Source: a virus
DNA length: 26,484 nucleotides
Strand: one strand, 5' to 3'
Virus record (IMG/VR): IMGVR_UViG_3300027852_000155
Span: 1 to 26,484 of that record
Both the position numbers and the translations under genes were made by a program. Shown here in pieces: positions 1,846-21,717 of the stretch. Numbering within the stretch: the first letter of the stretch is position 1; every line of letters starts with the position of its first letter. Under the pieces are notes generated by a model. The model was not told the DNA's origin and ran no database searches. It was given only the letters and a program-made list of their open reading frames with translations.

Positions 1846-2385
1846 ATGAGTTGGATCACAAAGAAGAAAACTCTCGACGGTCAGGACGAAAAAGGCCAGT
1901 TCATGCCCGGCAACCAGATTTGGAAGCGCCGCAGCCACCACGGCCACCGCAAAGGTTTTCTATTCCCAGAGCCAGAAGATTTGGAGCGAGCGGCGATAGA
2001 ATACTTTGAATGGGTGCAAGCCAACCCACTTTATGAAGCAAAGTCTGTTGGCGGGAAAATTCAACCAGTTGAAAAGATGCGCGCCATGACGTTGCACGGG
2101 CTCTGCCTCTTTATTGGCATTTCAAAGCCCGGTTGGGATAAGTATGTTTCGCGCGAGAAATACAGTGAAACGTGCGAATGGATTGCCACCGTCATCTATG
2201 AACAGAAGTTCACCGGGGCCGCTGCAGGACTTCTCAATCACAGTATCATTTCCCGCGAACTCGGACTTGCCGATAAAAAGGAAGTCAGCAACCCGGATGG
2301 CACATTGACCCCGCCGTCACGTATTGAGATTGTTGGCATTCCCGCGAGCGTTCCAGAGGATTCCGATGACGGCAATCCAGATTGA
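1846..2385 (+). CDS. Small terminase subunit, P22 gp3-like DNA packaging protein
   Basis: The 179-residue product matches the gp3-type small terminase pattern. It has a basic N-terminus with KGQFMPGNQIWKRRS, then a helical DNA-recognition region (about 45-145) containing YFEWVQANPL, MTLHGLCLFIGIS and FTGAAAGLLNHSIISRELGL. The C-terminus is short and acidic. P22 gp3 is about the same size (162). The small subunit recognises the packaging site on phage DNA and regulates the large subunit. GAAAGG (1831-1836) lies 9 bases upstream of the ATG. Its end overlaps the large-subunit gene by 20 bases, so the two are probably translated together. Confidence 0.85.
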   Translation: MSWITKKKTLDGQDEKGQFMPGNQIWKRRSHHGHRKGFLFPEPEDLERAAIEYFEWVQANPLYEAKSVGGKIQPVEKMRAMTLHGLCLFIGISKPGWDKYVSREKYSETCEWIATVIYEQKFTGAAAGLLNHSIISRELGLADKKEVSNPDGTLTPPSRIEIVGIPASVPEDSDDGNPD

Positions 2386-3706: not shown

Positions 3707-3766
3707 CACGGCGGCTCAATTCACTTACAGGTTTGATCTATATCAATGTCCAAATGAGGTTGGTTC

Positions 3767-5851
3767 ATGGCGCGCAAGGCAAAAAAACACACGTTGGATT
3801 TATCGGATGACCTCGTAAACGAGGCGGAATACGATAAACAGGCTGGATATTCTGGGTTTCTACAAATCGTGCGCGAGAACGCGGCCTACGGGCTTCAAGG
3901 TTGGGCCGAAAACTTTGCCGAAGCGCGTGATGATGTCCGGTTTTTCCGTGGTGGCAAGTATCAATGGGAACAAAAGGCATATGAAAAGAGGATGCTTTCT
4001 GACCGCCCGGCTCTGACATTCAACGATCTGCCGCAATACGTCGATCAGGTTCTCGGCGATCAGCGACAGAACCGACCGAGCATTCACATTGCGCCGAGCG
4101 ATGATGCTGGCGCCGGGATTGAGGTCGGCAATGTTGCAGGCACGTCCACCTATAAAATGGCCGAGGTCTACGAGGGGCTTATTCGGAACATCGAGTATTC
4201 TTCGAATGCTGAAACGCACTATGACGTGGCCGGGCAACACGCTGTTGAGGCCGGATTTGGATGGCTGCGCGTTCTGACAACCTATGCCAACCCCAAAAGT
4301 TTCGATCTGGATATTCGGATCAAGTCGATTGCCAATCGCTGGTCTGTGGTCATGGATCCGGATGCGCAAGAGCCAGACTATAGCGATGCAAATTACGCAT
4401 TCATTTTTGACGAAATGCCGCGCCACCAGTTTGACAAACTCTATCCAAATGCCGCAATCGGCAACCTGAATGAACGTGATGCAAAGATATGGGGCGGCAA
4501 GACAAAGGTTTCGGTCGCCGAATACTATGAGCGATATGCGGTTCAGCGCGAATTGCTGTTGTTGTCGAGTGGCGAGATTGTCTGGCGTGATGAAGTCAAG
4601 GACGTGCTGGATGATCTGCTCGAAAAGGGTGTGACCGTCGAAAGGCAAAGGCTGGTTGATACCTTCAAGGTGCGCTGGTGGAAGGTCACGGCCAATTCGG
4701 TTCTGCGCGGACCGATCGACATTCCATGCTCGATGATCCCGATCGCTCCCGTTCTGGGCAAAGAACTGAATATCGACGGAATTTCATATTATCGCGGCAT
4801 GATCCGCAACGCCAAAGACCCCAAGCGGGCCGATAACTTTTGGATGACGGCGGCAACCGAGCGGGTCGCTCTTTCTCCAAAGGCACCTTGGGTTCTGACC
4901 GCCAAGCAGATCGAGGGCCACGAAACCGAATGGGCGACAGCCAATCAGGGCACACCATCCGTTCTCGTCTACAATTCTGATCCGGCTGCAAACGGTATGC
5001 CAAAACGCCAAGATCCGGCCACCATGCCCGCAGCGGAATTGCAGGTCGCCGCCCATATGACCGACAAGGTTAAATCAACTATCGGGATGTATGATGCGAG
5101 TATTGGCGCGCAATCGAATGAGACAAGCGGAATTGCTATCACGGCAAGGCAACGAAAGTCTGACATCGGTGCATTCGCATTCTCGGACAATCAAAACCGT
5201 TCGATTGCACATGTCGGCCGAATTCTGGTTGAAATGATCCCGGCGATTTATGACACGGCCAGAACAGTTCGCATCCGGCACGTCAACGGCAAGGGTGATT
5301 GGATAAAGATCAACACCGTTGTTCGTGACGACAAAACCGGCAAAGACGTTGTGATCCACGATATGGCGCTCGGTTCTTACGATGTGACCGTGAAAGCGGG
5401 CCCAAGCTACACCACGCAACGCGCTGAGGCGTCCGCCGCCCTTCTTGAGTTTGTCCGGGTTGTGCCCGGCGTGGCCCCAATCATTGTTGATAAAATCGCG
5501 GACGTTATGGATTGGCCAGACGCTGACGAGATTACCAAGCGTCTGCGCTACACCATTCCGGGCCACATGCTGACCGAGGAAGAACGCGAGGGCATGGAAG
5601 AACAGCCGCCGGAAGAACCAACCCCGGAACAGGCGGTTGCGGCCAAACAGGCAGAGGCTGATATGGCAAACGCCGAGGCCGAAACGACGATGGCACAGGC
5701 CAAGTCGGAAGAAGCGCAGGCCAAAATTGCAGAAATTCAGGCACGGGGCGTTGAAAATGCGTTCATGGCTGATGTCGCCAAGCTGATCGAGGAAACCCTT
5801 ACACAAGTGATTGGCGATCACATGAAAACTGTTGACCATAAAGAGGACTGA
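3767..5851 (+). CDS. Portal protein, P22-type
   Basis: The 694-residue protein resembles the P22 portal family (P22 portal is 725 aa). The N-terminal half holds typical portal features such as FAEARDDVRFFRGGKYQW and PALTFNDLPQYVDQVLGDQR, followed by RPSIHIAP. The C-terminal part (about 600-680) is Glu/Ala/Gln-rich and strongly helical, matching the long coiled-coil barrel of P22-like portals. A ring of twelve subunits would form the DNA entry channel at one head vertex, dock the terminase, and later bind the gp4-like tail factor. A 60-base gap with no apparent signal separates it from the terminase gene. Its stop is followed 2 bases later by the scaffold ATG. Confidence 0.92.
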   Translation: MARKAKKHTLDLSDDLVNEAEYDKQAGYSGFLQIVRENAAYGLQGWAENFAEARDDVRFFRGGKYQWEQKAYEKRMLSDRPALTFNDLPQYVDQVLGDQRQNRPSIHIAPSDDAGAGIEVGNVAGTSTYKMAEVYEGLIRNIEYSSNAETHYDVAGQHAVEAGFGWLRVLTTYANPKSFDLDIRIKSIANRWSVVMDPDAQEPDYSDANYAFIFDEMPRHQFDKLYPNAAIGNLNERDAKIWGGKTKVSVAEYYERYAVQRELLLLSSGEIVWRDEVKDVLDDLLEKGVTVERQRLVDTFKVRWWKVTANSVLRGPIDIPCSMIPIAPVLGKELNIDGISYYRGMIRNAKDPKRADNFWMTAATERVALSPKAPWVLTAKQIEGHETEWATANQGTPSVLVYNSDPAANGMPKRQDPATMPAAELQVAAHMTDKVKSTIGMYDASIGAQSNETSGIAITARQRKSDIGAFAFSDNQNRSIAHVGRILVEMIPAIYDTARTVRIRHVNGKGDWIKINTVVRDDKTGKDVVIHDMALGSYDVTVKAGPSYTTQRAEASAALLEFVRVVPGVAPIIVDKIADVMDWPDADEITKRLRYTIPGHMLTEEEREGMEEQPPEEPTPEQAVAAKQAEADMANAEAETTMAQAKSEEAQAKIAEIQARGVENAFMADVAKLIEETLTQVIGDHMKTVDHKED

Positions 5852-5853
5852 AC

Positions 5854-6813
5854 ATGGCCGATGAAGAGCTGAAACCCGACACAATCAAGCCCGACAACGA
5901 CGCATCCATTCAGGTTTCGTCGTCTGACCTGCCGGAACCTAAGGCCGAGGAAACGCCCAAGGCCAAGGAAGAACCGACCCTGCTGCCTAAGGACAAAGAG
6001 GACGAACCGGAAAGCAAGGACGATCCAGAGAAAAAGCCAGAGGATGATCCTGAACAGGTCAAGGCAGCCGAGGTTGCCGCAGCCAAGGCGCGTGAAAAGG
6101 AAGATTGGGACAACTTGCCCAATGGCGCGCAAAAACGCATTTCCCGGCAATCCCGCCAGATCAATGACCTCAAAGGCGAAAATGCCGCACTCGAGGCTCG
6201 GATTGATGCGCTGGAAGCGCCGTCCGACGATCCAGAACCCAAGGCAGAAGAACTCGACCCAGACAGTTTCGATTCTTGGGATGAATATTTGGATGCGCGC
6301 GACAAGGCGGGTGTGAAAAAGGAAGAACCCAAGCCAGAGCCCAAGGCCGAGAAATCCGAACCACTGACTGGCACGGTTCCGCCCGAGGACTTTTTCAAAG
6401 CACAGGGTGATCTGGGCGAAAAGGTTTCGGCCAAAGACCCCGACCTTTGGGACAAGATCAGCGATACAAAGCACCCTGATTTTGTAAATCTTTCGATAAG
6501 CCCGGAACTCGTTGTGTCTCTCAGTGAGCTGGATGATCCGGCCAACGTGATCGAAAAGCTGATTGAAACGCCCGACAAGGCGGCCAAGTTCTCGAAAATG
6601 TCCGTGTTCCAACAGGCGCGCGCACTGGCAAAGCTGGACGCAGAGGAACCGCCAAAACAGCGCATCAAGTCAGAGGCACCCGAGCCTATCGAGCCGGTCG
6701 CCTCGCGCTCACGTCCGGTTGACAGGCCCTTTGATGAATTGTCTCAATCCGAATTTGAGGAACGTCGAAACGCTGAGGAAACCGCAAGGGGCGGGGCCGG
6801 GGCTTTCCGGTAA
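5854..6813 (+). CDS. Capsid scaffolding protein
   Basis: The 319-residue product is highly charged, rich in Glu, Lys, Asp and Pro, with repeated short units such as PKAEE and PKPEPKAEK. It lacks an enzyme motif. Its position between portal and coat and its size match P22 scaffold gp8 (303 aa). Such proteins fill the prohead, guide coat assembly and portal incorporation, and leave before packaging. Predicted helices near 80-120 (around GAQKRISRQSRQINDLKG) could drive self-association, and the basic C-terminus (EERRNAEETARGGAGAFR) could bind coat, as in P22; both are inferences. AAGAGGA (5841-5847) is a good ribosome-binding site inside the end of the portal gene. Confidence 0.85.
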   Translation: MADEELKPDTIKPDNDASIQVSSSDLPEPKAEETPKAKEEPTLLPKDKEDEPESKDDPEKKPEDDPEQVKAAEVAAAKAREKEDWDNLPNGAQKRISRQSRQINDLKGENAALEARIDALEAPSDDPEPKAEELDPDSFDSWDEYLDARDKAGVKKEEPKPEPKAEKSEPLTGTVPPEDFFKAQGDLGEKVSAKDPDLWDKISDTKHPDFVNLSISPELVVSLSELDDPANVIEKLIETPDKAAKFSKMSVFQQARALAKLDAEEPPKQRIKSEAPEPIEPVASRSRPVDRPFDELSQSEFEERRNAEETARGGAGAFR

Positions 6814-6830
6814 TACTTGCCAAAATGGCG

Positions 6831-6861
6831 TGTTCTGTCCTATTGATGGGACACGCGAACA
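6831..6861 (+). other. Hairpin in the scaffold-coat intergenic gap
   Basis: The 144-base gap 6814-6957 holds no convincing gene. It contains a stem in which TGTTC and TGTCC (6831-6840) pair with GGACA (6849-6853) and GAACA (6857-6861) around a 3-base bulge. A smaller GGGA-TAAT-TCCC stem lies nearer the coat start. No T-run follows, so a terminator is unlikely. A leader structure or mRNA-processing site that raises coat expression relative to scaffold is possible but unproven. Confidence 0.35.
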
Positions 6862-6957
6862 TTCCGCGCGGTGAAACGGGAATGGGTGACAGCGATCTAA
6901 GGGCTGGTTGTTGGGGATAATTCCCTAGAAAAAATCAACCAAACAAAGGATCAAATC

Positions 6958-8214
6958 ATGCCCCGTCTTGAAGGCACCGACAACATCATTCTAACCGATG
7001 ACGTGATTGCAAAAGAGGCCATGCGCCTTTTGAAAAACAACCTCGTCGCAACCCGCCTATGCCACCGTGACCACGAACAGCGGTTTGGCTCTATCGGCGA
7101 TACAATCTCCGTGAAAAAACCATCGCGCATCAAATCTGCGTCTGGCCGAACTCTGGTTAAACAACCAATGGTCGATCAGGTTGTTGCCGTAAAGGTGGAC
7201 AATCAGGAACATGTTGGCTTGGAATTCAATTCCATCGACCGTTCTTTGACGCTGGGCGACTTTTCCAGCCGTCACCTCGCATCCGGTATTTCGCAGATTG
7301 CACACGCGATTGATTCCTCGATCATCCGAACCGCGAAAAACGCTTTCTTCTTTAGCTCAGGCACACCCGGCGGCGCAGTCACGTCCGACAATTTCGTTGA
7401 TGCTGCGGCCTATATGTCGATGGTGGGTGTTCCCGCTGACAACATGTGCGCGAACCTGCTGAACCCACTGGATGCTGCGTCTTATCGCAAAGACCTGACC
7501 AGCCTCAACAACCCGGCGATGGTCAAGGCGGCGATTGAACGGTCCTATCTGGGCTATATGGGCGGTTCGGAAAGCTACGAAACCGCACAGATGATCCCGC
7601 ACACTGTTGGCGCGCTCGGCGGCACACCGCTGGTTGTTGGTGCATCGCAGACAGGGGCAACGCTCAATGTGGATGGCGGCTCAAACAGCGTCACCGACTG
7701 GATGCTGGAAGGTGACGTGTTCACGATTGCCGGTGTTTATGAGATTAACCCGCGCACCTATGTCTCGACAGGTCGCTTACAGCGTTTCGTCTGCACGGCT
7801 GATGTTGACACCTCGGGCACGGGAACGGTCACTATCCCAATCTCGCCCGCAATCAACGATGGCACTGTCACTGGTGTGGACAAAACTGGCGCGTCTATCT
7901 CGCTTGCGGCCTACCAGAACGTCACCGCCGCACCTGCTGACAACGCGGCAATCACGGTCATTGGCTCGGCTGGCACCACTTACCGCCAGAACCTCACGTT
8001 CCACCGTGACGCCGTGTCGCTGGCCATGATCGACATTCACCTGCCTGAATCGGCACCAGTTGCCAAACGGGTTCGTGATGAAGACACGGGCCTGTCATTG
8101 CTGCTGACCGCGCAATACGACATCAACGATATGACCGAAACATATCGTGTTGATGCGCTATGGGCTTGTGACGCGATCTACCCGGAACTTGGTCACCGCG
8201 TCTGGGGCGGCTGA
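6958..8214 (+). CDS. Major capsid (coat) protein, P22 gp5-like
   Basis: The 418-residue protein fits the P22 coat family (gp5, 430 aa) with an HK97-like fold. It begins with a short N-arm (MPRLEGTDNIILTDDVIAKE) and has the conserved VGLEFNSIDRSLTLGDFS stretch. A centrally inserted beta-rich segment (about 220-360) contains GDVFTIAGVYEINP (252-265), matching the position of the P22 insertion domain that stabilises the subunit. About 400 copies would form the head shell. AAAGGA ahead of the ATG is a good ribosome-binding site. It is followed by a strong hairpin terminator and preceded by a structured gap, which suits separate high-level expression. Confidence 0.95.
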   Translation: MPRLEGTDNIILTDDVIAKEAMRLLKNNLVATRLCHRDHEQRFGSIGDTISVKKPSRIKSASGRTLVKQPMVDQVVAVKVDNQEHVGLEFNSIDRSLTLGDFSSRHLASGISQIAHAIDSSIIRTAKNAFFFSSGTPGGAVTSDNFVDAAAYMSMVGVPADNMCANLLNPLDAASYRKDLTSLNNPAMVKAAIERSYLGYMGGSESYETAQMIPHTVGALGGTPLVVGASQTGATLNVDGGSNSVTDWMLEGDVFTIAGVYEINPRTYVSTGRLQRFVCTADVDTSGTGTVTIPISPAINDGTVTGVDKTGASISLAAYQNVTAAPADNAAITVIGSAGTTYRQNLTFHRDAVSLAMIDIHLPESAPVAKRVRDEDTGLSLLLTAQYDINDMTETYRVDALWACDAIYPELGHRVWGG

Positions 8215-8228
8215 ACCTAAATACTTAA

Positions 8229-8259
8229 AGGGCGGCTGTTCGTGGCCGCCCTACTCTTT
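8229..8259 (+). terminator. Rho-independent-type terminator or attenuator after the coat gene
   Basis: A perfect 8-bp stem, AGGGCGGC (8229-8236) with GCCGCCCT (8245-8252), encloses an 8-base loop and is followed by ACTCTTT. The T-tract is short, so it may be a partial terminator that lowers expression of downstream tail genes relative to coat. It starts 15 bases after the coat stop. No - strand gene nearby would need it in the other direction. Confidence 0.6.
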
Positions 8260-8279
8260 GGAAACTAGGGATTGAGAAA

Positions 8280-8684
8280 ATGGCAAAAGTCACAAATGAA
8301 CTGAAATCCGCAAAAGCAAGGGCCGTTATGCCGACAGCACCGGCCCGCTGCGTGATGTATAGCGAGGAATTCCCACTCGGGAAAACTTTCGATGTTGATG
8401 ATCTTGTGTTGATAGACATTGGCGATGGATGGGTGGATTCGCCCGACCTTGTTGGTGGTGCAGATCCGGCAGAAGTGCAGAAGGAACGCGCTCTGGCCGA
8501 GAAACTTGAGGCTTTCCAGAACGGAAAAACCGGATCATGGCTCAAGGATGATTTTGTTTCCTTGGCAATCATGCTCGGCGCGCCTGATGATGTTGGGTCT
8601 GAAACTGTTGCCAACATCCGGGCCATGATCGAGCAGGCCGTTGAAGAACGCAACAAACCTTCTGAACCGTCACTGATGGGATAA
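8280..8684 (+). CDS. Hypothetical protein between coat and gp4-like genes, 134 aa
   Basis: The 134-residue product lies between the coat and the gp4-like tail factor, where it is probably structural or helps complete the head. It begins with a Lys-rich start (MAKVTNELKSAKARAVMP). A beta-like section follows, with YSEEFPLGKTFDVDDL and DGWVDSPDLV, and then a helical acidic C-terminal half. The DGWVDSP phrase is seen in assorted small phage proteins that read like accessory structural factors. I cannot name the family. Translation starts 65 bases after the coat stop, just past the terminator, so it depends on read-through or its own weak promoter. Confidence 0.6.
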   Translation: MAKVTNELKSAKARAVMPTAPARCVMYSEEFPLGKTFDVDDLVLIDIGDGWVDSPDLVGGADPAEVQKERALAEKLEAFQNGKTGSWLKDDFVSLAIMLGAPDDVGSETVANIRAMIEQAVEERNKPSEPSLMG

Positions 8685-8687
8685 TCT

Positions 8688-9461
8688 GTGGGTATCACAG
8701 CAAAACAACTGATCGACAGCGCGGCCAGAAAGATTGGCGTATCCGGCAAGGGCCTGGACATGGACGCGAGCGACTATATGGACTTTCTCGAAGGTCTGAA
8801 AATGATGCTCGACGGTTGGGCGCTGGAACACCTGATGATCCCATACCGAACCAAAGAGACTTTCACGCTCGATGGTTCATCCAGTTACACAATCGGGCCG
8901 GGCGGTGATTTCGACACCGTGCGGCCCTTGGCCATTGCTGACATGCGAATTTCCAATGGTTCAGGAACTGACTTCAAGGTCACATCCGTTGAACTGGAAC
9001 AGTGGAACCGCCTGTCTGCGACAATCAGCGTAGGGCGGCCAAACTACTTTTTCCTTGAAGCTGGCTACCCTCTTTCAACGATCTGGTTTGAAAAGGCACC
9101 TGACGATCCAAACGTGACGTTCTGGTCCTACAAGCCGATTGAGGCATGGCAGGTCGGCGATCTGGACGTTGCTGACAACCCCGCTTGGGCCGGTCAAGAC
9201 CTTCCAACCTCTGGCCTGTCCATCGCAACCCTGCTGGCAGATATTGAATTCGATGTCGGATACGAGGCGGCGATTGTGTTCAATCTCGCAATCGTCATGG
9301 CCCCGGAATATGAAAAAATCCCTTCCATTGTGGTTCTCAATCTGGCCGACAGCTACAAGAGCCGGATCAAAAACCAGAACATTCGGGTGGGGCAGTTGAC
9401 CGTTGATAGCGGCCTTGGCGTGAGCCGACCATATTACGACATTACCGCCGGGCCGGGCTAA
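8688..9461 (+). CDS. Tail accessory factor, P22 gp4-like head-completion protein
   Basis: The 257-residue protein starts at a GTG. Its N-terminus (ITAKQLIDSAARKIGV, then DFLEGLKMMLDGWALEHLMI) is the helical signature of the gp4 family of podovirus adaptor proteins. The middle (FTLDGSSSYTIGPGGDFDTVRP) and the FLEAGYPLSTIWFEKAPD stretch are also typical. It would bind the portal ring after packaging, extend the tail tube and hold in the DNA. P22 gp4 is shorter (166); the extra length suits the long-form versions seen outside enterobacteria. A lytic activity has been reported for P22 gp4, but nothing here shows it. Its stop overlaps the gp10-like start by one base (TAATG). Confidence 0.85.
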   Translation: MGITAKQLIDSAARKIGVSGKGLDMDASDYMDFLEGLKMMLDGWALEHLMIPYRTKETFTLDGSSSYTIGPGGDFDTVRPLAIADMRISNGSGTDFKVTSVELEQWNRLSATISVGRPNYFFLEAGYPLSTIWFEKAPDDPNVTFWSYKPIEAWQVGDLDVADNPAWAGQDLPTSGLSIATLLADIEFDVGYEAAIVFNLAIVMAPEYEKIPSIVVLNLADSYKSRIKNQNIRVGQLTVDSGLGVSRPYYDITAGPG

Positions 9462-10807
9462 TGGCGAAAGTTCAATTCGCAATTGAGCATGGCAAGGGCC
9501 GTTCCTCAGTTGGGTCTGGGTCGGAACTGGTCAACATGTTTGCCCAACGTGCGCCCAAAGGGGCCAAGGATTCGGTTTACCTTCTGGGCACACCCGGCCT
9601 TTCGCTGTTCTCGATGCTCGCAACCGCTGGCGAATCCGTCGCCAACTTGCAGCCGTTTGGAAATGATGTCGTCGTGATTTCCGATGTCTCGACATATCTT
9701 CTGTTCAGCGATGGAACCTATCAATATTTGGGCGCTGGCCTATCAGGTAGCGTGAGCGCGGCCACGAATGGAACAGTGGTTTGCGCGGTCAACGGCACAA
9801 CAGGGGTTGTTATCACAACAACATCCGTGAGCGTTATCACCGATCCTGATTTCCTACCGGCTGACACGGTTACATTCATTGGCGGGTTCTTTGTGTTCAA
9901 TCGCCGGGGCTCGGGCCAGTATTTTATATCCTCTCTCTATGGAACGGACTTCGATGCGCTGGACTTTGCGACAGCGGAATCTGCACCGGATGACACAATC
10001 GCCGTGCTGGCTCTGCGCCGGGAAATTTGGCTGATGGGCGAAAACACGGTCGAGGTGCACACGTTGACCGGGGGGTCATTTCCGTTCTCGCCTCTTACTG
10101 GCGTGTCAATAAACTTTGGCTGCGCGTCCTCGTTCTCTGCCCGCAAGGTCGATCAGTCGATTGTCTGGTTGTCGCCAGATGGGATTGTCTATCAATCGAA
10201 TGGATATGCCGCTCTGAGGATCAGCACACATGAGATTGAGGAAGAAATGAAGCCGCTCGCGGATCAGTGGGCCACGTCCTTTGCTTGGGACTATATCGAG
10301 GACGGGCACCAGTTCTATGTCCTGACGATGGGCACCGAGACTTTCTGCTTTGATTTTGCAACCCGACTTTGGCACAAGCGATCGACAATCTCGACGGGAA
10401 GTCACATTGCCAAGACCGCCTGCCGGGCATTCAACAAAAATCTGGTGGGTGATGCGACCGGCCGCATTCTGGAAATGAGCAAAACGCTCAATCAGGACGT
10501 GGACGAGGACATTGTGGCAATCATTGGATCAATTCCATACACCGCCAACGGTCAGTTTTTCACGGTCGCCAGCTTCACAATCGACAGCGAGGTCGGCAAT
10601 GGCGGTTCAGCGACCTTGGAATTCAGCAAGACGGACGGCAAAACATGGTCGAGCCGGTTGCTCATAAGCCTTGGCTTGATTGGCGATCACACCCGAATTG
10701 CACAGTGGAAAAGACTTGGCCGACACCGTGATTTCCGCGCGCGCATTCGCCTCTATGGTGACGTTCCGCGCCGCATATCCTCAACCGCAGAAATGAAGGC
10801 AGGCTGA
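9461..10807 (+). CDS. DNA stabilisation / tail hub protein, P22 gp10-like
   Basis: The 448-residue protein matches the length (472) and character of P22 gp10, the hub that closes the tail after gp4. It is beta-rich throughout, consistent with a propeller-like fold, with the typical N-terminus GSGSELVNMFAQ. It also has FIGGFFVFNRRGSGQYFIS, INFGCASSFSARKVDQSIVW and SPDGIVYQSNGY. It prevents DNA leakage and provides the attachment surface for spikes. Its position directly after the gp4-like gene with a one-base overlap supports the call, and the downstream gene starts on its last base. Confidence 0.88.
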   Translation: MAKVQFAIEHGKGRSSVGSGSELVNMFAQRAPKGAKDSVYLLGTPGLSLFSMLATAGESVANLQPFGNDVVVISDVSTYLLFSDGTYQYLGAGLSGSVSAATNGTVVCAVNGTTGVVITTTSVSVITDPDFLPADTVTFIGGFFVFNRRGSGQYFISSLYGTDFDALDFATAESAPDDTIAVLALRREIWLMGENTVEVHTLTGGSFPFSPLTGVSINFGCASSFSARKVDQSIVWLSPDGIVYQSNGYAALRISTHEIEEEMKPLADQWATSFAWDYIEDGHQFYVLTMGTETFCFDFATRLWHKRSTISTGSHIAKTACRAFNKNLVGDATGRILEMSKTLNQDVDEDIVAIIGSIPYTANGQFFTVASFTIDSEVGNGGSATLEFSKTDGKTWSSRLLISLGLIGDHTRIAQWKRLGRHRDFRARIRLYGDVPRRISSTAEMKAG

Positions 10808-11064: not shown

Positions 11065-11501
11065 ACTTCGAGGATCTTCTTTCAAAGTGGTTTAAGGGCA
11101 ACGCTGACGCCGTGTCCTTTGCCCTGCAAATCTGGGAAGCCGCGCAAATCTGGGACGACATGAAGGATGGCGCCAAGCAAGGCTCGGATGATGTCGAGGA
11201 CTTGCTGGCGTGGCTGGCGTTTGGCAAGGAATACTCGCCGTTCTTTGCAAAATACCAACCCATTCTTCGCCCTGCCTTGCTCGGCATGTATCTGAAATGG
11301 TCCGCGGCCAACGTGCTTGAGGTTGGCGACGAGGACGACATCAACAAAGCGTATATGTTGCGAGCCGGTTTTTATGACGTGTTGCATTTGATGGTGTGGC
11401 TGGTGGGTGGAAATGATTGGGCGCGCCGTGTTGGCCCGGAAATCTATCGAGCATACGGCGAAACGCTGAATGAACTGAAAAGGGAATTTGACAATGCCTG
11501 A
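11061..11501 (+). CDS. Conserved helical phage protein, 146 aa, function unknown
   Basis: The product is wholly helical. Features are a starting LLSKWFKGNADAVSFAL, a WDDMKDG motif (about residue 31), FGKEYSPFFAKYQPILRPAL, and a late LVGGNDWARRVGPEI. This pattern recalls a widespread uncharacterised phage family with W-D-D-x-x-D near the N-terminus and a Gly-Gly-x-x-Trp near the C-terminus. I know of no assigned function. The start at 11061 overlaps the previous stop and is preferred to the long upstream extension in the same frame, which is a shadow of the 85-residue gene. The gene overlaps the next by 8 bases, and a virion or assembly role is suggested only by location. Confidence 0.65.
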   Translation: MNFEDLLSKWFKGNADAVSFALQIWEAAQIWDDMKDGAKQGSDDVEDLLAWLAFGKEYSPFFAKYQPILRPALLGMYLKWSAANVLEVGDEDDINKAYMLRAGFYDVLHLMVWLVGGNDWARRVGPEIYRAYGETLNELKREFDNA

Positions 11502-12177
11502 TCCAATTACTGCTATTATCGGGTCTGGTGCTATTGGCGGGATTGGCTCTATCGCTGCGGCCAAGTCACAAGAGAAAGCATCCGACAAGGCGGCAGACGT
11601 TCAGTCGGAAACCGCCGACAAATCCATTGCCGAATCCAGACGCCAATACGATCAGGACCGTGAGGATCTTGCACCTTGGCGTGAACTTGGCGCGCAGGCC
11701 GTGGAAGCAATCTCGGCAGGGCTGGAAGATGGCTCGTTTAGCATGGATGATTTCGATTATACGAAAGACCCCGGCTATCAGTTCCGAATGGACGAGGGCG
11801 AAAAACTTCTCAACAATTCGGCAGCGGCGCGCGGGTCCGTTCTGTCAGGGCAACAACTCAAGAACGCGATTGCCTACGGGCAGGACTTTGCATCAAACGA
11901 ATATGACCGAGCCTATGGTCGCGAGTCGGGCCGAAAGGCGTCTGATTTTGCGCGCTACACCTCGGCTGCGGGATTGGGCAGTTCTGGCGTGTCTCAGACA
12001 GTGCAGGCCGGTCAGGCGGCCACCGGGCGTTCCATCAACGCACTGACGTTGCAGGGCAATGCGTCCGCGCAAAACTACATCAATCAAGGCAATATCTCTG
12101 CAAGCATGTATGGCAATTTGGCGTCCGGGGCCAATCAGGGGATTGAGAATTACCTGACATATAAGGGGCTTGGCTAA
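11494..12177 (+). CDS. Candidate DNA ejection (injection) protein, 227 aa
   Basis: The N-terminal hydrophobic Gly/Ala-rich helix (ITAIIGSGAIGGIGSIAAAK, residues 5-24) could insert in a membrane. A charged coiled-coil region follows (25-60). Then comes a block conserved in many phage injection-type proteins: DPGYQFRMDEGEKLLNNSAA (92-111), RGSVLSGQQLKN and YGQDFASNEYDRAYGR. The C-terminal third is Gln/Asn/Ala/Gly-rich. It occupies the place of P22 gp7, one of three proteins released into the cell to form a DNA conduit. AGGGAA (11481-11486) lies 7 bases before ATG 11494, so I prefer it to the TTG at 11488. It overlaps both neighbours slightly. Confidence 0.75.
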   Translation: MPDPITAIIGSGAIGGIGSIAAAKSQEKASDKAADVQSETADKSIAESRRQYDQDREDLAPWRELGAQAVEAISAGLEDGSFSMDDFDYTKDPGYQFRMDEGEKLLNNSAAARGSVLSGQQLKNAIAYGQDFASNEYDRAYGRESGRKASDFARYTSAAGLGSSGVSQTVQAGQAATGRSINALTLQGNASAQNYINQGNISASMYGNLASGANQGIENYLTYKGLG

Positions 12178-13268
12178 TGGCAAACGCGCTTGGAATTAAC
12201 TATTCGGACGTTCTCAAAAACGTCGAAAGCATAAAGACGGCCAGATTGCAGCGCGAGGGCATTGGTCTGGACAATCAGTCCAAACGGCTCGCGCTTGGCG
12301 AGGGCAGAAAGGCCGTTGAGCGCAACGATAATGCTATCGCTCTGCGTCAAGATGCGATTGCGGGCGATGAAACGGCGCTTCCAAAGCTGGTTGCGATCAA
12401 TCCAGACGAAGCCACTGGATTTATGAAAACTCTCGCCACCATGAGCGCCTTTGACCGGTCGGAAATCAACCGTGGGATTGAGGTGATGGGCAAGGCGGCG
12501 GCCTTTGTTCTTGGCTCAAACGACCCGACCGCAGCCTATTCTCAATTGTTGCAGGCGCTACCCGAGGAAGAACGCGCAAAATATCCGCCCGAATACGATG
12601 AACAATTTGTCCGGTTGCAATTGGCGCGCGCAAGCGAGTTTGACGAACTGTTCAAAAGTGTCACGGCTAAGGATGAAACCTTGCTCAATGCCGGGATTGA
12701 TAGCGCAGCGGCAGACGCCGACGAATTGCGGGATATTGCCACCGAGGACCGCAAGACAGCCAGCACAATCGCGACAGAGAACCGGTCCGAAGGGGCTGAC
12801 ATTCGGGCAGAGGGGCGAGCCGAGGACCGCGCGATCCGTGCCGACCAGCGAAAGAATGAAGCGGCCAGCCGGAAAGCTGAACAAGCACAGACCTACCGGC
12901 TCAATGAACTGGAAGCAGGGGCCAATCTGACCCGCGAAACCAACCGACTGAAAGCGCAGGTTGAAGCTGACATCGAGGCCGGGGCTGGTCGAACAATGAA
13001 ATCGGCGGATTCCAATGCGATCTATTCTCGGGCGGCATCCCTGTTCGGCGGGACATACACCCAGAGCGCGGGCGGCGATTATGTTTTCACCGGTCTGGAT
13101 AAAACGTCATCAACCCGTGCTTTGAAGATTGCAGAACTTGCGGAAACAATTTGGCGCGGGCAGACGTCTATCGGGCACAGCGAGGCCGCACGACAGGCCG
13201 CAGAAATGCTCGGTTTTGATTTTTCCGACAACACCGGCCTACCAGCGGGGTTTGTAATTGATAAATGA
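12177..13268 (+). CDS. Internal virion / ejection protein, coiled-coil, 363 aa
   Basis: This is a soluble helical protein starting MANALGINYSDVLKNVESIK. Helical repeats lie in the middle (about 60-175). A very charged Arg/Glu/Ala segment follows (about 185-245), with near-repeats such as ADIRAEGRAEDRAIRADQRK that should form a long coiled coil. A small C-terminal domain (about 275-363) contains LFGGTYTQSAGGDYVFTGLD. No enzyme motif is seen. By position it corresponds to P22 gp20/gp16-type ejection proteins. It starts on the last base of the previous gene and overlaps the giant downstream gene by 4 bases (ATGA), which suggests coordinated production of a multi-protein ejection apparatus. Confidence 0.65.
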   Translation: MANALGINYSDVLKNVESIKTARLQREGIGLDNQSKRLALGEGRKAVERNDNAIALRQDAIAGDETALPKLVAINPDEATGFMKTLATMSAFDRSEINRGIEVMGKAAAFVLGSNDPTAAYSQLLQALPEEERAKYPPEYDEQFVRLQLARASEFDELFKSVTAKDETLLNAGIDSAAADADELRDIATEDRKTASTIATENRSEGADIRAEGRAEDRAIRADQRKNEAASRKAEQAQTYRLNELEAGANLTRETNRLKAQVEADIEAGAGRTMKSADSNAIYSRAASLFGGTYTQSAGGDYVFTGLDKTSSTRALKIAELAETIWRGQTSIGHSEAARQAAEMLGFDFSDNTGLPAGFVIDK

Positions 13269-16200
13269 AAACCGCAACCAACCCCACAACCGGCGAAAAG
13301 GTTTTTTTCAACGAAGAATCTAACAAGTGGCAACCGTTGAAAACCGCCACCAATCCTGAAACTGGTGAAAAAGTTTACCAGCAGGGGGATCAATGGCTGC
13401 CATACGAGGCGTCCAACCAGCCGGAAGCACCAAGATCATCGGACGAGACTGGCGTGATAGCCGCAGGAAAGCGCATTGCCCGGCGGTTGCCGGGCGTGGC
13501 CGAGGCGACGGGGCAGGCATTGCAGAACGTGCCGGAAAACCTGACAATCGGTGCACTTGGCTTGGGTCTGGCTGAGGCCGAATTGGAAGCAGGGGTTTCA
13601 CGTTCCGACGAGCAGGCGCAAATCAAAGGCGGGGCCGCTCTTGAGCAGATGGATGCTCAGATGGCTGACTTGCAAGCGTCCCTATCCACGGCACCACGCG
13701 ATCAGCGGGCAGCAATCCAATCCAAGATCATTGACCTGCGAAGCCAGCAGGGCCAGCAACGCCAATTGTTCGGCGCATCGAAGCAAGAAGCGCAGCGCGA
13801 GGCTCGACAGGCCACACAGGCCGAGATTGACGCCGAGGACAAGCGGATCGCCATTTCCGAGGAACAGGAAACCTTGGTCAATATCAATGCCCCAAAGGGT
13901 TCGGCAGAGTGGTATATCGCGCAGGCAATCGGGGCCACGGCGGAAATGGCGCCAGCCCTTGTTGCGTCTGTGTTGACGAGAAGCCCGGCCCCGGCAATGA
14001 CGTTCATGGGCGGCTATTCAGGCGGTCGCGCTTATGTGAGCGGGCGAGCCGAGGGGCTCACACCCGGCGAGGCGCGCGGCTATGCAACCCTGAACGCAAT
14101 TGCCGAAGGTATTCCCGAGGCCATTCCGGTTGCTGTTCTTTTGAGGCCCGGTGCAAAATTCCTAACCCGTATTGTTCAGGGTGCCGCCGCCGAAAGCGCG
14201 CAGGAAATGCTGACCGAGGCACTACAGGTCGCAATTGACCGGGGCTATATTACACCAGAAACCACATGGGCAGAGGCGCGCGAGCGCATCCTGGACGCCG
14301 GAATAATCGGATCTATGGCCGGAGTGAGCATGGCCGGGGTTGTGACAGCGACCGAGGGCACAATGACAGCCGGTCAGGCGATAGGCCGCCGCGTCATGGA
14401 CAAGTTTACGTCCGCGCAGCCCGTTGCCCCGCAGAGCGAGGCTGCACCCGTTGTCGAGGGCGTTGAGGCACCACAACAGCCGGGAACGGCCCCACCAGAC
14501 GCCCCAGTCGTCCCAGAAGGACAGGAAGGCCCCACACCGGACACACAGGCACCGGCAGCGCCCGAGGGGGCCGCTGACCCGTTCACACGCAATGTTCTGG
14601 CTTTTGTTGGCGACAAAGAGGCACCGGGTGGGTTCGATCAGGTCTACTCCGGTTCCAAGCTGGCACCGCCCAAGCCAATCACCACCATGAGCATTAACGA
14701 ATTGCTGGCTTGGCAGGACGCGAGCGTTGCAGCCGGATCGGAAAGTTCCGCAGCCGGGCGGTATCAGATCATTCGAAAGACGTTGCGCGGGCTCGTTGCC
14801 AAGATGGGTCTGAATGGTTCTGAGACTTTCAATCAAGAATTGCAGGATCGTTTGGCAGTTGAACTTATGAACGAGGCCGGGCTGGCACAGTTCAAGGCCG
14901 GTGAAATAACCGCATCCGAATTCGGCAATCGACTGTCTGGCGTGTGGGCGGCTTTGCCACGGGTTTCCGGCGATGGGGCTGGTCGGTCCACATATGCCGG
15001 GGATGGGCTGAACGCGGCCACCACCTCAGTTGATGCGTTCATGGGAATTCTTGCAGGCGACGAATACGTTGCAGGCGAGATGACAGGCGGCCACGGTGTG
15101 GGTGGAAATCAGTCCTCGCCCGCGCCCGAAGCCAAAGGCGGCACCTCTCAACCCTCCCAGAGTGGTGTCGCCACCACGCCAGAACAGGGTGTTCCCGAGC
15201 CCGTCACCACTGAGATTGAGGCAACGCAGGCACAGCCCGAGGCCGAGCCAAAGACCGAACCGCAAGAGGTGGCAGAGCAAGCCGAACAGCCGGTTGAAGA
15301 ACAGCCCGCGCCGCCCAAATCACCAGAGGCAGAGGCCGAGGTGATAAACAAGGCGATTGAGAACATCGAAACGGACCCGACCGACGCCCAAAAAGAGGCC
15401 GGGAATTATCCCAAGGGCCATGTGAAGATCGAAGGGCTGGACGTAACGATCGAGAACGGCGCGGGGCATGTTCGCAAGGGCACGGACGAAAACGGCAAGG
15501 CGTGGGAAGTCACCATGCCAGCGCATTACGGATACATCAAACGCACTGTTGGCGCTGATGGCGATCACGTTGATGTCTATGTCGGCGAGGTGCCAAATCC
15601 AAACAGCGTGTTTGTTGTCGATCAGATTGATTTGGACACCGGCAAGTTTGACGAACACAAGGTCATTCTGAGCGTTGCCGACGCAAAGGCCGCCGGAATG
15701 CTCTATCGCGCCGGGTTTTCTGATGGCAAGGGCGGCGATCGCATGGGCGCACTGTCCGAAATGACGATGGATCAGTTCAAGGCATGGCTGGATAAGGGCT
15801 CACAGAAAAAGCCTTTCGGAAAGATTGCCAAGGTTTCACGTGAAACATCGGCCACAGACACCAAGCCAAAATCTAAGGCCCCGGTGCTCGATGATCTGGT
15901 AAAGGAAGAACCCGACGCCAAGAAGCGCGCGGCGGTCATGCGCAAGGCCGCAGGCACTTCGGAAAATGTGTCGTGGGACAATCTGGAAGCGGACCAAAAA
16001 GTCAATGCTATCGCGCTCGCCCAGGCATCAAAAATGCCAACCCAAAAGACAGCGCCACGCAAGAAGCCAAAGAAACGCGCCGAACCCCTGCCGGTTCCAC
16101 GCAAAGAAATTGAACTTGCCCGGAAAACGGCGATGGACAAACTGCGCGAGGCGACCGCAGAGATTAAGCGCAAGATGGCGCGCGGCGATGATACGCTTGT

Positions 16201-19200
16201 TGAGGTCACGATATTCACACCCATGAACAAGGGCACGACATTCCGGTTCCAGCCAAATGAGGCGGGGCTGGATGCGGTCAAGGGTGTGCTGAAAAAGTGG
16301 AAAACGTCACCGGCTAAAACGCTGGCAATGGAACCGCCAAGCGATGCGGCGCTAAACTTCGATATGCCAATGCCCGGCCACCAGCCGCTTTGGCGATCTA
16401 TCCCGACGCCGTTGCGCTCAAACGCCAATTACATTCGGATAGCTGGCGAGCGCGTTGATCTGCCTGACCAACACAAGCCAGTGCGTCGATCGAGCATAAG
16501 AACATCCGTTGAAAGAATGATCGGTTCGCGTGTTTATCAGGGGAAAATCAAAGGCAAGACGCGCGCCGGTTTCTATCGCACAAGCAACGGTGAATTGCGC
16601 CTGAACAGCTTTGACGATCTGGAAGTGCTGGCCCATGAGGTTGCGCATTGGCTCGACTTCCATAGTTCTCGCAAGGCGGCTTTCACGGCCATGCGCAAAT
16701 CGGCCCCGGCCCTTGCCAAGAAGCAGATGAAAGACCTGTCCTATACGTCGCAATCTGGAAAGGTTGAGTTGGAAGGATTCGCGGAATTCGTGCGCCTTTG
16801 GCTAACGCAATACGATGTGGCCGTTGCCAAGGCACCGGACTTCACAAAACTGTTCGAGGCTGAACTGGCAAAGGACAAGTTCCTGTTGCGCGGCTTTGAA
16901 CATCTTCGCCGGGAAATGCACAAATATTTCTATCAGGGTCCACTTGCTCAAGCGCGTGGGAACATCGGCAAAGACCCAAGCCTAAAGAATGCGACCGAGG
17001 AATTCATTCTGACCCGGCCCATATCGCGCTTGCGCCAGCAGGCCGTTGATAACCTGCATGGGATCAAGGTCGCCGAGCGGGAAAGCACGGGCACAATCGC
17101 GAGTGCTGAAAATTCGCCCTACAAGCTGATGCAATTGGTCAATGGGGCCGAGGGCGTTTACGAGGCAACGGTTCGGTGGGGCACGCCAAAGCTGGAAGCG
17201 GATGGATCGTTCTCGTTCAACGGCAAAGCCCTGAATGAAATTTTCCGGCCGATTTACAAGATGGGCCCAAAGGCGTTTGACGATTTCTTGCTCTATGCCG
17301 CGGGTCGGCGCGCCAATGAGTTGAAGAAACAAGACCGCGAAAACCTGTTCGATCAGGAACAAATCGCGGCCATGCTAGAATTAAAGCGACCTGAGTTCGA
17401 TGCGGTTTTTGATGAATACCAACAGTTCAATTTGGAAATGCTGGATTTCTACGTGGACATGGGGCTGATAACGAAGGACCAGAAAAAGGCTTTCAGGGCA
17501 GCGAATGAAAACTACATTCCCTTCCATCGGATTTCTGAAAGTCTCGAAACGGGACGGCCCACCAGCGGTGTGTCGATAGGGGCGAGATTGAAGGGCGGCG
17601 ACAGAAACGTCCGCAATCTGGCAGACAACATTGTCGAAGGCGTTATGACCAACATCCGGGCTGCGATGATCGCCAAGGCAAAACAAACCCTCTACCGACA
17701 AGTCTCTAAGAGCGACACGGGCGGTTCGTTTGCTGTTAAAATTGGGACCGACAGCAAGGCAGTTAAGGCGCGTCTTGATGATATGGCTGGCAAGGTTGCC
17801 GAGGCGATGCTGCGTCTTGGCTTTGGTGTGTCCAAAGACGGAATGATAATGGGCACGGGTCAGTCTGGAACCATCACCGATGTGGACGAAATCGCCACAG
17901 TTCTAAAAGACAACCCGGAATTGTTGATGCTCTGGAACCATAACGTCGCCCCGACCACCCAGGAAACTTACGTGGATTCGGCGATCATCGGCGGCAAGCA
18001 GGTTTATTTTGAGGTTCAAGATCCGGTCTTGGTCGATAGCCTTCTGGCAAACCAGCACATGAAATACGGACTTTTGATGCGCTCGCTCGTCGGTGTTCGC
18101 CGGTTCTATACGCGCACGATCACCAACATGGTTCAGTTCATCACGCCCAACATAAGCCGCGACACCCTGACCGCTGCCGGCCTGTCCGACAGCCGGTTCC
18201 GCCCGTTCTGGGATAGCCTGCGTGGCATGAAGCAAATCCTGACAACTTCGGATGTTTATAAAGACTGGAAGTTGCAGGGCGGCGGCTATGCGTCCTTTGT
18301 CGAGGCATCCACAGCAGAGGGGCGGCACCGCGCACAACTGGACATGCCGTCACGCGGCCCGCTTGATGTGTTGGCAAAGGGGCTGGCATCCTATGACGCC
18401 TTGTCCGCGGCATTTGAGAACGCAACGCGCGTCGGCGAATTTATGCGGGCGCAAGAGCGCGGAACATCAAAGAAAGAAGCGGCCTTTCGGGCTCGGGAAG
18501 TATCGACAGATTTCAGCAAAAAGCCGGGGAACCGCGAGTGGTCCGGTTTCTTGCAGATTGTTCCTTTTGCAAACGCTGCCCTTCAAGGTAACGACCGGAT
18601 GGTCAAGGCGTTCACAGGCGAGGATGGCCGAGTGCAAAAAGGTCGCATGGCTTCCTATGCTCTGCGCCGCACATTCTTTTCCGCTGGCACAGCAATGGCA
18701 GCCTTTACAGCGTTCCTTTGGTATCTGCAAAACGACGACGAGCGATACAAGGCATTGACGCCAGATCAGAAAAGCCGGTTCTGGCACATTTGGTTGCCGG
18801 GCAAAGAAAACGCCATTCAGATTCCAAAGCCTTACGGGTTGGGTTTGATCTTTGCAGACACGGTTGAGAATGCGCTGGACTATGTGAAGGACAAGGATGG
18901 GGCCGAGGTCGCGACAAATCTTGCTTGGGCAATGAAGCACCATTTCTGGTTCATGGATTATCCCGGCGCGATCCAGCCAATCGTTGACCACATGACTAAC
19001 CAGAAATTCACGGGCGCGCCGGTTATCCCGCCGAGCCTTGAGAATGTTTCGAATGAATTGCAGTTCACAGACAGAACGCCGGAAATCTATCGCCGCATGG
19101 GTCGGACGATGGGCGTGTCGCCGTTGCTGGCAGAGCATTATTTCCGGGGATACCTGGGCTATGTCGAGCAATACTGGACGGACGCCACTGAAACGATGCT

Positions 19201-19648
19201 TTGGGACACTGAGACTTGGGGCCCGAGGCCCTTCCCGCGTGGGATTGATGACTACTTTGTGAAGCAGTTCAAGGGGGCCAAAATATCATATCGGACGAAA
19301 TACACCGAAGGATATTACGATCTTAGAAAGCGCGCGGCCACAGCGACAGCCGATTTGCGCATGGCAGAAAAGATCATTCTCAGGGATGGGACGCGATTGC
19401 AGGAAGTGGCATCCAACGAAATGAACCAAGTTCTTATCGGCTTGACCAAGGTTTTCGCCCAAATCGACAAAGTGTTGGGTGATGGGCAAAAAACTGTTAT
19501 TGCAATCAAGTATGACCCGAGTTTGACCCGCGCCGAAAAGGAAACCCAGATTGAAAACTGGTATGAACAAAGGCATGAACTTGTGAAAGATGTTTACTTG
19601 GCGGCGGAAACTGAGGTCGAGAAGGTCGAAAGGGGCTTAGGCAAATGA
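13265..19648 (+). CDS. Giant polyvalent ejection protein: lysozyme-like, pyrophosphatase-like, metallopeptidase and LPD38-like domains
   Basis: This 2127-residue protein carries several domains in order. (1) Two tandem repeats KTATNPxTGEKV...W (2-24, 26-46). (2) A hydrophobic Ala/Gly-rich helical region (about 220-370) that could cross membranes. (3) A lysozyme-like domain (about 438-600) with E452 and SAAGRYQI (495-502). (4) An inorganic-pyrophosphatase-like domain (about 713-860) with ADGDHVDVYVG, whose aspartates 765, 767 and 770 match the family metal-binding motif. (5) A zinc metallopeptidase with HEVAH (1124-1128) and EGFAEF (1170-1175). (6) A long C-terminal helical region with an LPD38-like block (about 1815-1880, from WYLQNDDERYKAL). 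Such combinations define phage polyvalent proteins, thought to be delivered with DNA to counter the host. The lysozyme would open peptidoglycan. Substrates of the other domains are unknown. It overlaps both flanking genes by 4 bases. Confidence 0.85.
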   Translation: MKTATNPTTGEKVFFNEESNKWQPLKTATNPETGEKVYQQGDQWLPYEASNQPEAPRSSDETGVIAAGKRIARRLPGVAEATGQALQNVPENLTIGALGLGLAEAELEAGVSRSDEQAQIKGGAALEQMDAQMADLQASLSTAPRDQRAAIQSKIIDLRSQQGQQRQLFGASKQEAQREARQATQAEIDAEDKRIAISEEQETLVNINAPKGSAEWYIAQAIGATAEMAPALVASVLTRSPAPAMTFMGGYSGGRAYVSGRAEGLTPGEARGYATLNAIAEGIPEAIPVAVLLRPGAKFLTRIVQGAAAESAQEMLTEALQVAIDRGYITPETTWAEARERILDAGIIGSMAGVSMAGVVTATEGTMTAGQAIGRRVMDKFTSAQPVAPQSEAAPVVEGVEAPQQPGTAPPDAPVVPEGQEGPTPDTQAPAAPEGAADPFTRNVLAFVGDKEAPGGFDQVYSGSKLAPPKPITTMSINELLAWQDASVAAGSESSAAGRYQIIRKTLRGLVAKMGLNGSETFNQELQDRLAVELMNEAGLAQFKAGEITASEFGNRLSGVWAALPRVSGDGAGRSTYAGDGLNAATTSVDAFMGILAGDEYVAGEMTGGHGVGGNQSSPAPEAKGGTSQPSQSGVATTPEQGVPEPVTTEIEATQAQPEAEPKTEPQEVAEQAEQPVEEQPAPPKSPEAEAEVINKAIENIETDPTDAQKEAGNYPKGHVKIEGLDVTIENGAGHVRKGTDENGKAWEVTMPAHYGYIKRTVGADGDHVDVYVGEVPNPNSVFVVDQIDLDTGKFDEHKVILSVADAKAAGMLYRAGFSDGKGGDRMGALSEMTMDQFKAWLDKGSQKKPFGKIAKVSRETSATDTKPKSKAPVLDDLVKEEPDAKKRAAVMRKAAGTSENVSWDNLEADQKVNAIALAQASKMPTQKTAPRKKPKKRAEPLPVPRKEIELARKTAMDKLREATAEIKRKMARGDDTLVEVTIFTPMNKGTTFRFQPNEAGLDAVKGVLKKWKTSPAKTLAMEPPSDAALNFDMPMPGHQPLWRSIPTPLRSNANYIRIAGERVDLPDQHKPVRRSSIRTSVERMIGSRVYQGKIKGKTRAGFYRTSNGELRLNSFDDLEVLAHEVAHWLDFHSSRKAAFTAMRKSAPALAKKQMKDLSYTSQSGKVELEGFAEFVRLWLTQYDVAVAKAPDFTKLFEAELAKDKFLLRGFEHLRREMHKYFYQGPLAQARGNIGKDPSLKNATEEFILTRPISRLRQQAVDNLHGIKVAERESTGTIASAENSPYKLMQLVNGAEGVYEATVRWGTPKLEADGSFSFNGKALNEIFRPIYKMGPKAFDDFLLYAAGRRANELKKQDRENLFDQEQIAAMLELKRPEFDAVFDEYQQFNLEMLDFYVDMGLITKDQKKAFRAANENYIPFHRISESLETGRPTSGVSIGARLKGGDRNVRNLADNIVEGVMTNIRAAMIAKAKQTLYRQVSKSDTGGSFAVKIGTDSKAVKARLDDMAGKVAEAMLRLGFGVSKDGMIMGTGQSGTITDVDEIATVLKDNPELLMLWNHNVAPTTQETYVDSAIIGGKQVYFEVQDPVLVDSLLANQHMKYGLLMRSLVGVRRFYTRTITNMVQFITPNISRDTLTAAGLSDSRFRPFWDSLRGMKQILTTSDVYKDWKLQGGGYASFVEASTAEGRHRAQLDMPSRGPLDVLAKGLASYDALSAAFENATRVGEFMRAQERGTSKKEAAFRAREVSTDFSKKPGNREWSGFLQIVPFANAALQGNDRMVKAFTGEDGRVQKGRMASYALRRTFFSAGTAMAAFTAFLWYLQNDDERYKALTPDQKSRFWHIWLPGKENAIQIPKPYGLGLIFADTVENALDYVKDKDGAEVATNLAWAMKHHFWFMDYPGAIQPIVDHMTNQKFTGAPVIPPSLENVSNELQFTDRTPEIYRRMGRTMGVSPLLAEHYFRGYLGYVEQYWTDATETMLWDTETWGPRPFPRGIDDYFVKQFKGAKISYRTKYTEGYYDLRKRAATATADLRMAEKIILRDGTRLQEVASNEMNQVLIGLTKVFAQIDKVLGDGQKTVIAIKYDPSLTRAEKETQIENWYEQRHELVKDVYLAAETEVEKVERGLGK
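13268..13402 (+). repeat. Tandem coding repeat at the start of the polyvalent gene
   Basis: Two diverged direct repeats of about 70 bases start at 13268 and 13340. Each encodes K-T-A-T-N-P-x-T-G-E-K-V followed by a short charged loop and a W-x-P ending. The pattern looks like a small beta unit, perhaps used to dock the protein in the virion or to another ejection protein. The repeats differ mostly at silent or loop positions, so this is an old duplication rather than a recent one. Confidence 0.7.
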
Positions 19649-21376: not shown

Positions 21377-21715
21377 ATGTTTGATATAACGCTCAATCGG
21401 GCCGATCCTGACGGAAATGTCCACAAGGTTTTGTGGGAAGGTATGGCCGATGGTGACACTATCCAGCCACTATTTCCGGGTCGAATGCAGTCCGCACTTT
21501 CATCGGTTCAAATGACAGGAACATTTGGCGGAACCGTTGTTCTTCAAGGCTCAAATGATGGGGTGAATTGGGTCACGATGAAGGACACAGACGGGGCAGA
21601 CATATCAATGTCGGCTGCCGGTCTTGTTGAATTGTCGTCAACTGTTTGGGCTATTCGACCGAGCCCCGGCGCTGGCGTGTCGGATGTTGATGTCACGATG
21701 GTTCTGAGGGGTTGA
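21377..21715 (+). CDS. Small beta-sandwich-like virion protein, 112 aa
   Basis: The 112-residue product is beta-rich. It has VVLQGSNDGVNWVTMKDTDG (54-73), a phrase typical of small phage proteins with an Ig-like or carbohydrate-binding-like sandwich fold, and it ends AIRPSPGAGVSDVDVTMVLRG. AAGGAAA lies shortly before the ATG. It sits among the receptor-recognition genes and may decorate the tail or cap a fibre. No enzyme motif or signal peptide is seen. Function is inferred from fold style and position only. Confidence 0.6.
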   Translation: MFDITLNRADPDGNVHKVLWEGMADGDTIQPLFPGRMQSALSSVQMTGTFGGTVVLQGSNDGVNWVTMKDTDGADISMSAAGLVELSSTVWAIRPSPGAGVSDVDVTMVLRG

Positions 21716-21717
21716 GC

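Follow-up and report, generated by a model that had tools for sequence, protein, structure and literature searches.

A 2127-residue polyvalent protein probably fills the gp16 slot of a P22-type head cluster and starts with a candidate capsid-targeting tag

Introduction

What does a protein of 2127 residues with several unrelated enzyme domains do among the head genes of a P22-type phage, at the place where P22 has the much shorter ejection protein gp16? The question is raised by an open reading frame (ORF) in IMG/VR virus record IMGVR_UViG_3300027852_000155, a metagenomic virus contig of 26,484 bases that was analysed over its whole length (the window). A preliminary description of this DNA had claimed that the protein, here called the giant, joins wall lysis with three or more other activities, and had suggested that entry and early takeover functions are delivered together with the DNA. 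It has been reported that phage polyvalent proteins likewise combine several unrelated enzyme domains in one polypeptide encoded beside late virion genes, and InPase, LPD38, lysozyme and MPTase domains have all been described in them (Iyer et al. 2017, PMC5512222). The giant has at least two disparate domains in one polypeptide and its gene lies among late virion genes; on these grounds we class it as a phage polyvalent protein, an already known kind. Here we present evidence that it probably takes the place of gp16, the third ejection protein, in a P22-type head, and we propose a mechanism for it. Its least expected part, absent from the preliminary description, is a short tandem tag at the N terminus.

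Results

A giant frame in the gp16 slot

The P22-type head gene cluster named in the preliminary description was borne out by PHROGs matches. The genes run in the order TerS, TerL, portal, scaffold, coat, an unassigned gene, gp4-like, gp10-like, a second unassigned gene, gp7-family, gp20-position and giant (Table 1). In P22, gp16 is likewise the third ejection gene after gp7 and gp20, the trio measuring 229 aa (gp7), 471 aa (gp20) and 609 aa (gp16), and its gp7 belongs to the same PHROG as the gp7-family gene here. The giant had been set against this trio as a whole, as three modest proteins without such enzymes. The gp16 slot does hold enzymes here, but the gp7-family and gp20-position genes are kept, so that only P22 gp16 is replaced and the trio remains.

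The frame is uninterrupted from its ATG at 13265 to the stop codon ending at 19648, as had been claimed, and its start and the stop of the gene ahead overlap in the ATGA at 13265-13268. Since the contig is metagenomic and the domain set is absent from all relatives examined, an assembly chimera or degenerate fusion had to be considered. We find this hardly credible, given the intact frame and overlapping start, the conservation of key residues in all domains, and a C-terminal module that shares 47% identity with its VvAW1 phage counterpart along some 1100 residues.

A constant C-terminal module behind a variable upstream part

The giant has 88 relatives here: 80 kept IMG/VR loci and 3 genome-assembly loci retrieved by a profile of the C-terminal part, and the isolates VvAW1, BA3 (a Thalassomonas phage), 41E34.2, phiARM81mr and CF418P1. 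Their proteins are mostly 1400-4100 residues long, some being cut at contig ends. In 41 non-redundant closed proteins, the distance from the peptidase to the C terminus was 1012-1153 residues (coefficient of variation, CV, 2.8%), whereas the upstream part reached 3049 residues (CV 61%; its lowest length, 1, is probably a mis-called start). These giants therefore consist of a near-constant C-terminal module of about 1060 residues, comprising peptidase, helical region and LPD38, and a variable upstream part. The HExxH motif is kept in 84 of 85 giants, the exception being truncated by a contig end, and the hydrophobic segment at residues 216-359 of the window giant is common to 47 others. In the relatives the upstream domains include Eco57I-type and small methylases, SNF2/ResIII helicase, InPase, ART and LPD3. 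The same lysozyme was found in one other relative only (L049), in a different domain order, and lysozyme and InPase occur together in none of the 88. At 69 related loci the upstream DNA was long enough to be judged: 43 of these have the gp7 family in place and 40 the gp20 family, and those lacking them include other phage types.

Enzyme domains of the giant

The lysozyme region had no match in a Pfam scan of the giant. By sequence it is 44% identical to the lambda-type lysozyme of Rhizobium phage Paso (E=7e-25) and matches lambda lysozyme itself at E=0.002. In a structure predicted for residues 425-860, which cover the lysozyme and InPase part, the lysozyme model (predicted local distance difference test, pLDDT, mostly >95) aligns with lambda lysozyme 1am7 over 139 residues (Z 11.7). 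We conclude that this is a real lambda-type (GH104) domain despite the missing Pfam match. The column of Glu452 holds Glu in 32 of 35 ungapped relatives and in all five rows of a separate alignment; Glu452 is the candidate catalytic glutamate, and lysozyme activity would be expected from it. The nearest lysozyme relative (56%) lies inside another protein of 1303 residues (L221:7065-10976), in which a nucleotide-kinase-like P-loop was also seen by eye, making it a second multi-enzyme protein with the same lysozyme.

The top fold match of the lysozyme model is a baseplate protein of cyanophage A-1(L) (Z 13.6), and a weak match was also obtained to phrog_430, a tail lysozyme. The giant might on these grounds be a tail- or baseplate-type lysin with accessory domains rather than an ejection protein. 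Within the cluster, however, we recognised no gene for a tail tube, sheath or baseplate, and relatives sharing the C-terminal module mostly do without this lysozyme, which makes such a role very unlikely.

The InPase domain (PF18823) was matched at E=5.8e-49 and 165.8 bits, against a Pfam cut-off of 26.8. The four aspartates given in Table 1 are common to five relatives, the DGDxVDV motif aligns with E. coli pyrophosphatase (PPase), and the predicted fold resembles family I pyrophosphatases. Among relatives with a PDB entry, the nearest forms the C-terminal domain of the portal of Pseudomonas phage Pa193 (gp19, 9b41; E=1.5e-23), whose residues 529-765 have no density (PMC11042391); the same family is fused there to a portal and here to an ejection-type protein.

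The peptidase motif HEVAH...EGFAE comprises H1124-E1125-x-x-H1128 followed by E1170/E1174, none of which varies among 46 relatives of 22-47% identity. In a fold search the 17 top rows were all zincins, at Z 7.9-7.0 over 126-134 residues (caution level 8); anthrax lethal factor scored 7.9, PPEP-1 7.1 and, further down, ArdC 5.4. Alone, Z values below 8 are only suggestive, but they are consistent with the motif and with the zincin assignment of polyvalent MPTases by Iyer et al. (PMC5512222). Pfam scans of the giant gave no MPTase-PolyVal match to this region.

LPD38 (PF18857) was matched at E=2.2e-37 and 129.4 bits against a cut-off of 27, with a transmembrane-like helix directly ahead of it. 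All four domains of the preliminary description were thus recovered, although, of the Pfam families it had named, InPase and LPD38 were found by profile and MPTase-PolyVal was not. Several enzyme domains with their catalytic residues kept are present, but LPD38 is a conserved domain of unknown role and not an activity.

A giant that is packaged but not injected would be an internal head or portal-vertex protein, its peptidase a maturation protease and its other domains at work in assembly. We recognised no separate prohead protease among the window genes, and an InPase domain also occurs on the Pa193 portal, which stays in the particle. P22, however, is not known to need a head protease, it is hard to see what a wall lysozyme would do inside a head, and the position of the giant matches that of gp16, which is ejected. 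We consider this alternative improbable.

A tandem tag at the N terminus

The first 48 residues of the giant are two copies of a motif of about 24 residues, KTATNPxTGEKV...WxP, with a self-repeat score 10.5 standard deviations above shuffles (z=10.5). Self-repeats with z>3 were present in 33% of the giants' N termini, compared with 1% of internal stretches of the same proteins. The repeated sequences vary among giants; NPFDQFD, for example, occurs twice in L049 and L010.

A DNA pattern for TNPxTGE[KR]Vx6WxP was found in at least 119 IMG/VR stretches. Shortened by one base, and so out of frame, the pattern was found in 5, which we take as the chance level. Among the matches listed, to which the counts in this and the next paragraph refer unless given as minima, the tag lay within the first 35 residues in 107 of 114 tagged ORFs with a closed start, representing at least 107 IMG/VR loci, and 76 of these 107 N-terminal carriers had a degenerate second copy. 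Five ORFs (L122, L159, L163, L179 and L200) end with the tag instead, the one in L163 encoding a relative of P22 gp20; the tag may therefore be portable to either end. Beyond residue 60 the bodies of the tagged ORFs fall into 9 groups mutually unrelated by detectable sequence.

At least 53 loci have a gp7-family gene, then one gene of 242-567 aa, then the tagged gene, which is the gp16 slot again. In 48 of the 81 tagged loci with 2.5 kb of upstream DNA, gp7 lies 1.0-1.75 kb upstream; in the others it was not found, and it is never elsewhere. The gp7 and gp20-position genes of tagged loci do not carry the motif themselves. Carriers match P22 gp16 (2.5e-7), T7 gp16 (1.6e-5), P22 gp20 (8.8e-8; the C-terminally tagged L163), the N-terminal part of the N4 virion RNA polymerase (vRNAP; 1.3e-21) and DarB-like proteins (2.2e-59). 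Further carriers are M15 peptidases and the third ejection protein of Pseudanabaena phage Pan3, and L194 has both tag and LPD38. The tag itself was not among the matches to Pfam, PHROGs or NCBIfam families, and a literature search did not find the exact tag strings, which is weak evidence of novelty.

It has been shown that the N-terminal 30 residues of the 250-kDa P1 protein DarB suffice to load a reporter into heads; BLAST found no common signal among the P1 Dar proteins (PMC9024508). The N-terminal portions of P22 gp7 and gp20 also mediate incorporation, in the authors' model via scaffolding protein (PMC8402733). The DarB capsid-targeting sequence (CTS) and the CTS of T4 internal proteins are short N-terminal stretches on internal head proteins; the tag is likewise short and mostly N-terminal, on proteins that would be packaged, and DarB-like proteins are among the tag carriers. 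The tag differs in that the TNPxTGE motif is common to many unrelated proteins, whereas the P1 Dar proteins yielded no common sequence, and in being known here from sequence alone. By analogy with these precedents, we propose the tag as a candidate CTS for head loading.

The tag could instead be a docking motif, acting between ejection proteins or on a host envelope component after exit. Most of its carriers are gp16-slot proteins, and in one case (L163) it ends a gp20-family protein, as a docking peptide might; both would suit such a role. That it also turns up where no P22-type locus is recognisable, on DarB-like proteins, vRNAP-like proteins and M15 peptidases, and the experimentally shown targeting by the DarB N terminus (PMC9024508) argue otherwise; we regard docking as possible but rather unlikely. 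Returning to head loading, we tentatively suggest, with less confidence than for the gp16 slot, that TNPxTGE[KR]Vx6WxP, usually in tandem, may be a portable capsid-targeting tag on unrelated injected proteins (gp16-slot, giant polyvalent, vRNAP-like and DarB-like proteins and wall hydrolases). The giant would then be a tag, a membrane segment and exchangeable enzymes joined to a constant peptidase/LPD38 carrier, and its upstream enzymes would be interchangeable injected cargo.

A tagged protein (L156:6193-12039) matches N4 vRNAP in its N-terminal part and also the LPD38 module in its helical region, and possibly links the two giant families. Several other N termini were conspicuous. By eye, the starts of giants L050, L065 and L075 and of P22 gp16 (L095:11484-13313) resemble each other in a 'PDG/PDD...' stretch, which may be a further shared tag and would then extend to P22 gp16 itself. 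In L005, L006, L028, L035, L037-L044 and other giants, a start of about 45 residues, F..xNPQYnDmxDdqLv.alh.KyYsDiP.eqFnqkIG, is another candidate tag.

Features of the window

The giant is followed by proteins of host-recognition or tail type. Two of them are large and probably receptor-binding or tail proteins: one at 21712-24492 with a weak laminin-G-like match, and one at 24686-26482 with no match, cut by the contig end. No tRNA was found in the window.

Table 1. Positions of the giant, its parts and the genes ahead of it
Feature	Position	Strand	Basis
2127-residue polyvalent protein, gp16 slot of P22-type head cluster	13265..19648	+	ORF and Pfam
N-terminal tandem tag, residues 1-48, two copies of KTATNPxTGEKV...WxP; candidate CTS	13265..13408	+	
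Conserved hydrophobic segment, residues 216-359	13910..14341	+	common to 47 related giants
Lambda-type (GH104) lysozyme domain, residues 437-600; candidate catalytic Glu452 at 14618-14620	14573..15064	+	sequence and model
InPase domain PF18823, residues 707-842; conserved D765, D770, D786, D796	15383..15790	+	
Linker ahead of peptidase, residues 855-1060; charged, probably flexible	15827..16444	+	translation reading alone
Zincin-type metallopeptidase domain, residues 1067-1226; HEVAH 16634-16648, EGFAE 16772-16786	16463..16942	+	
Helical region of constant C-terminal module, residues 1230-1821; transmembrane-like helix 1803-1821 at its end	16952..18727	+	
LPD38 domain PF18857, residues 1825-1978	18737..19198	+	Pfam
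C-terminal end of constant module, residues 1985-2127	19217..19645	+	
P22-type head genes: TerS, TerL, portal, scaffold, coat, gp4-like adaptor, gp10-like head closure	1846..10807	+	PHROGs
gp7-family DNA ejection gene, phrog_598 (same PHROG as P22 gp7)	11488..12177	+	
gp20-position gene, phrog_36852, 363 aa	12177..13268	+	

Discussion

Among the closest systems is the giant of Vibrio phage VvAW1 (3640 aa, annotated as DNA methylase), which stands in the same slot after gp7- and gp20-type genes. It has a methylase and a helicase upstream, where the window giant has lysozyme and InPase, and it lacks the TNPxTGE tag. The layout of the window giant, with a hydrophobic segment, enzymes in the middle, HExxH and a helical C-terminal part, also resembles that of N4 vRNAP gp50. 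There a membrane-active N-terminal part is followed by an enzyme, an HExxH domain and a large helical part that has no known relatives (PMC12633501). In profile comparison of the two, the alignment was limited to the HExxH element (pairwise E 0.0025, against 0.67 for a reversed control); no homology was found between the helical part of the giant and vRNAP C2, and Pfam and PHROGs gave no T7-like RNA polymerase domain in the giant. The resemblance is thus a likeness of layout rather than demonstrated kinship.

In the mechanism that we propose, the N-terminal tandem tag would recruit the giant into the procapsid, a step suggested by the DarB and the gp7 and gp20 N-terminal precedents. As its gene position suggests, the giant would leave with the gp7- and gp20-type proteins ahead of the DNA. 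The lysozyme, whose catalytic Glu is present, would open peptidoglycan around the conduit, and the hydrophobic segment and conserved C-terminal module may lie in or across the inner membrane. The zincin-type domain, at the boundary between variable and constant parts, might free the upstream enzymes or process a target, and the InPase domain could work on pyrophosphate or a nucleotide in the cytoplasm. The suggestion that entry and early functions are delivered with the DNA agrees with the catalytic residues kept and with the position of an ejection gene; virion presence, packaging, injection, cleavage and catalysis are what we infer. Our literature search found no paper on virion mass spectrometry of large polyvalent proteins.

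Several observations weigh against this interpretation. Apart from its 609 aa and its lack of any of the giant's enzymes, P22 gp16 showed no homology to the giant when profiles of the N-terminal part (E 0.5) and C-terminal part (E 0.9) were aligned, and the two belong to different PHROGs; nor did the gp20-position gene show homology to P22 gp20 by profile. Equivalence is therefore by gene position only. No solved structure matched the C-terminal module as a whole; a second comparison probed mainly the peptidase and the C-terminal helices, so the module may still have a known fold. Polyvalent InPase domains are described as being without a hairpin of the classical enzyme (PMC5512222), so that of the giant may not hydrolyse pyrophosphate. 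For the tag, several of the carriers' family matches are weak (1e-5 to 1e-8), and it could have another purpose within the ejection complex.

Combinations of many domains define the class published by Iyer et al. (2017, PMC5512222), and the giant is one more polyvalent protein, with a set of lysozyme, InPase, MPTase and LPD38 unseen in the 88 relatives. It adds two things. One is a constant/variable layout, given here in numbers, for the gp16 slot of P22-type heads: a C-terminal module of about 1060 residues and up to about 3000 residues upstream. The other is a short, recognisable N-terminal tag on many unrelated ejection-type proteins. We found no mention of the constant C-terminal length or of the N-terminal tag in the available part of PMC5512222. 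The selection of ejection proteins for the head is itself poorly understood; should the tag prove to be a targeting sequence, proteins inside the virion would become recognisable from their sequence alone.

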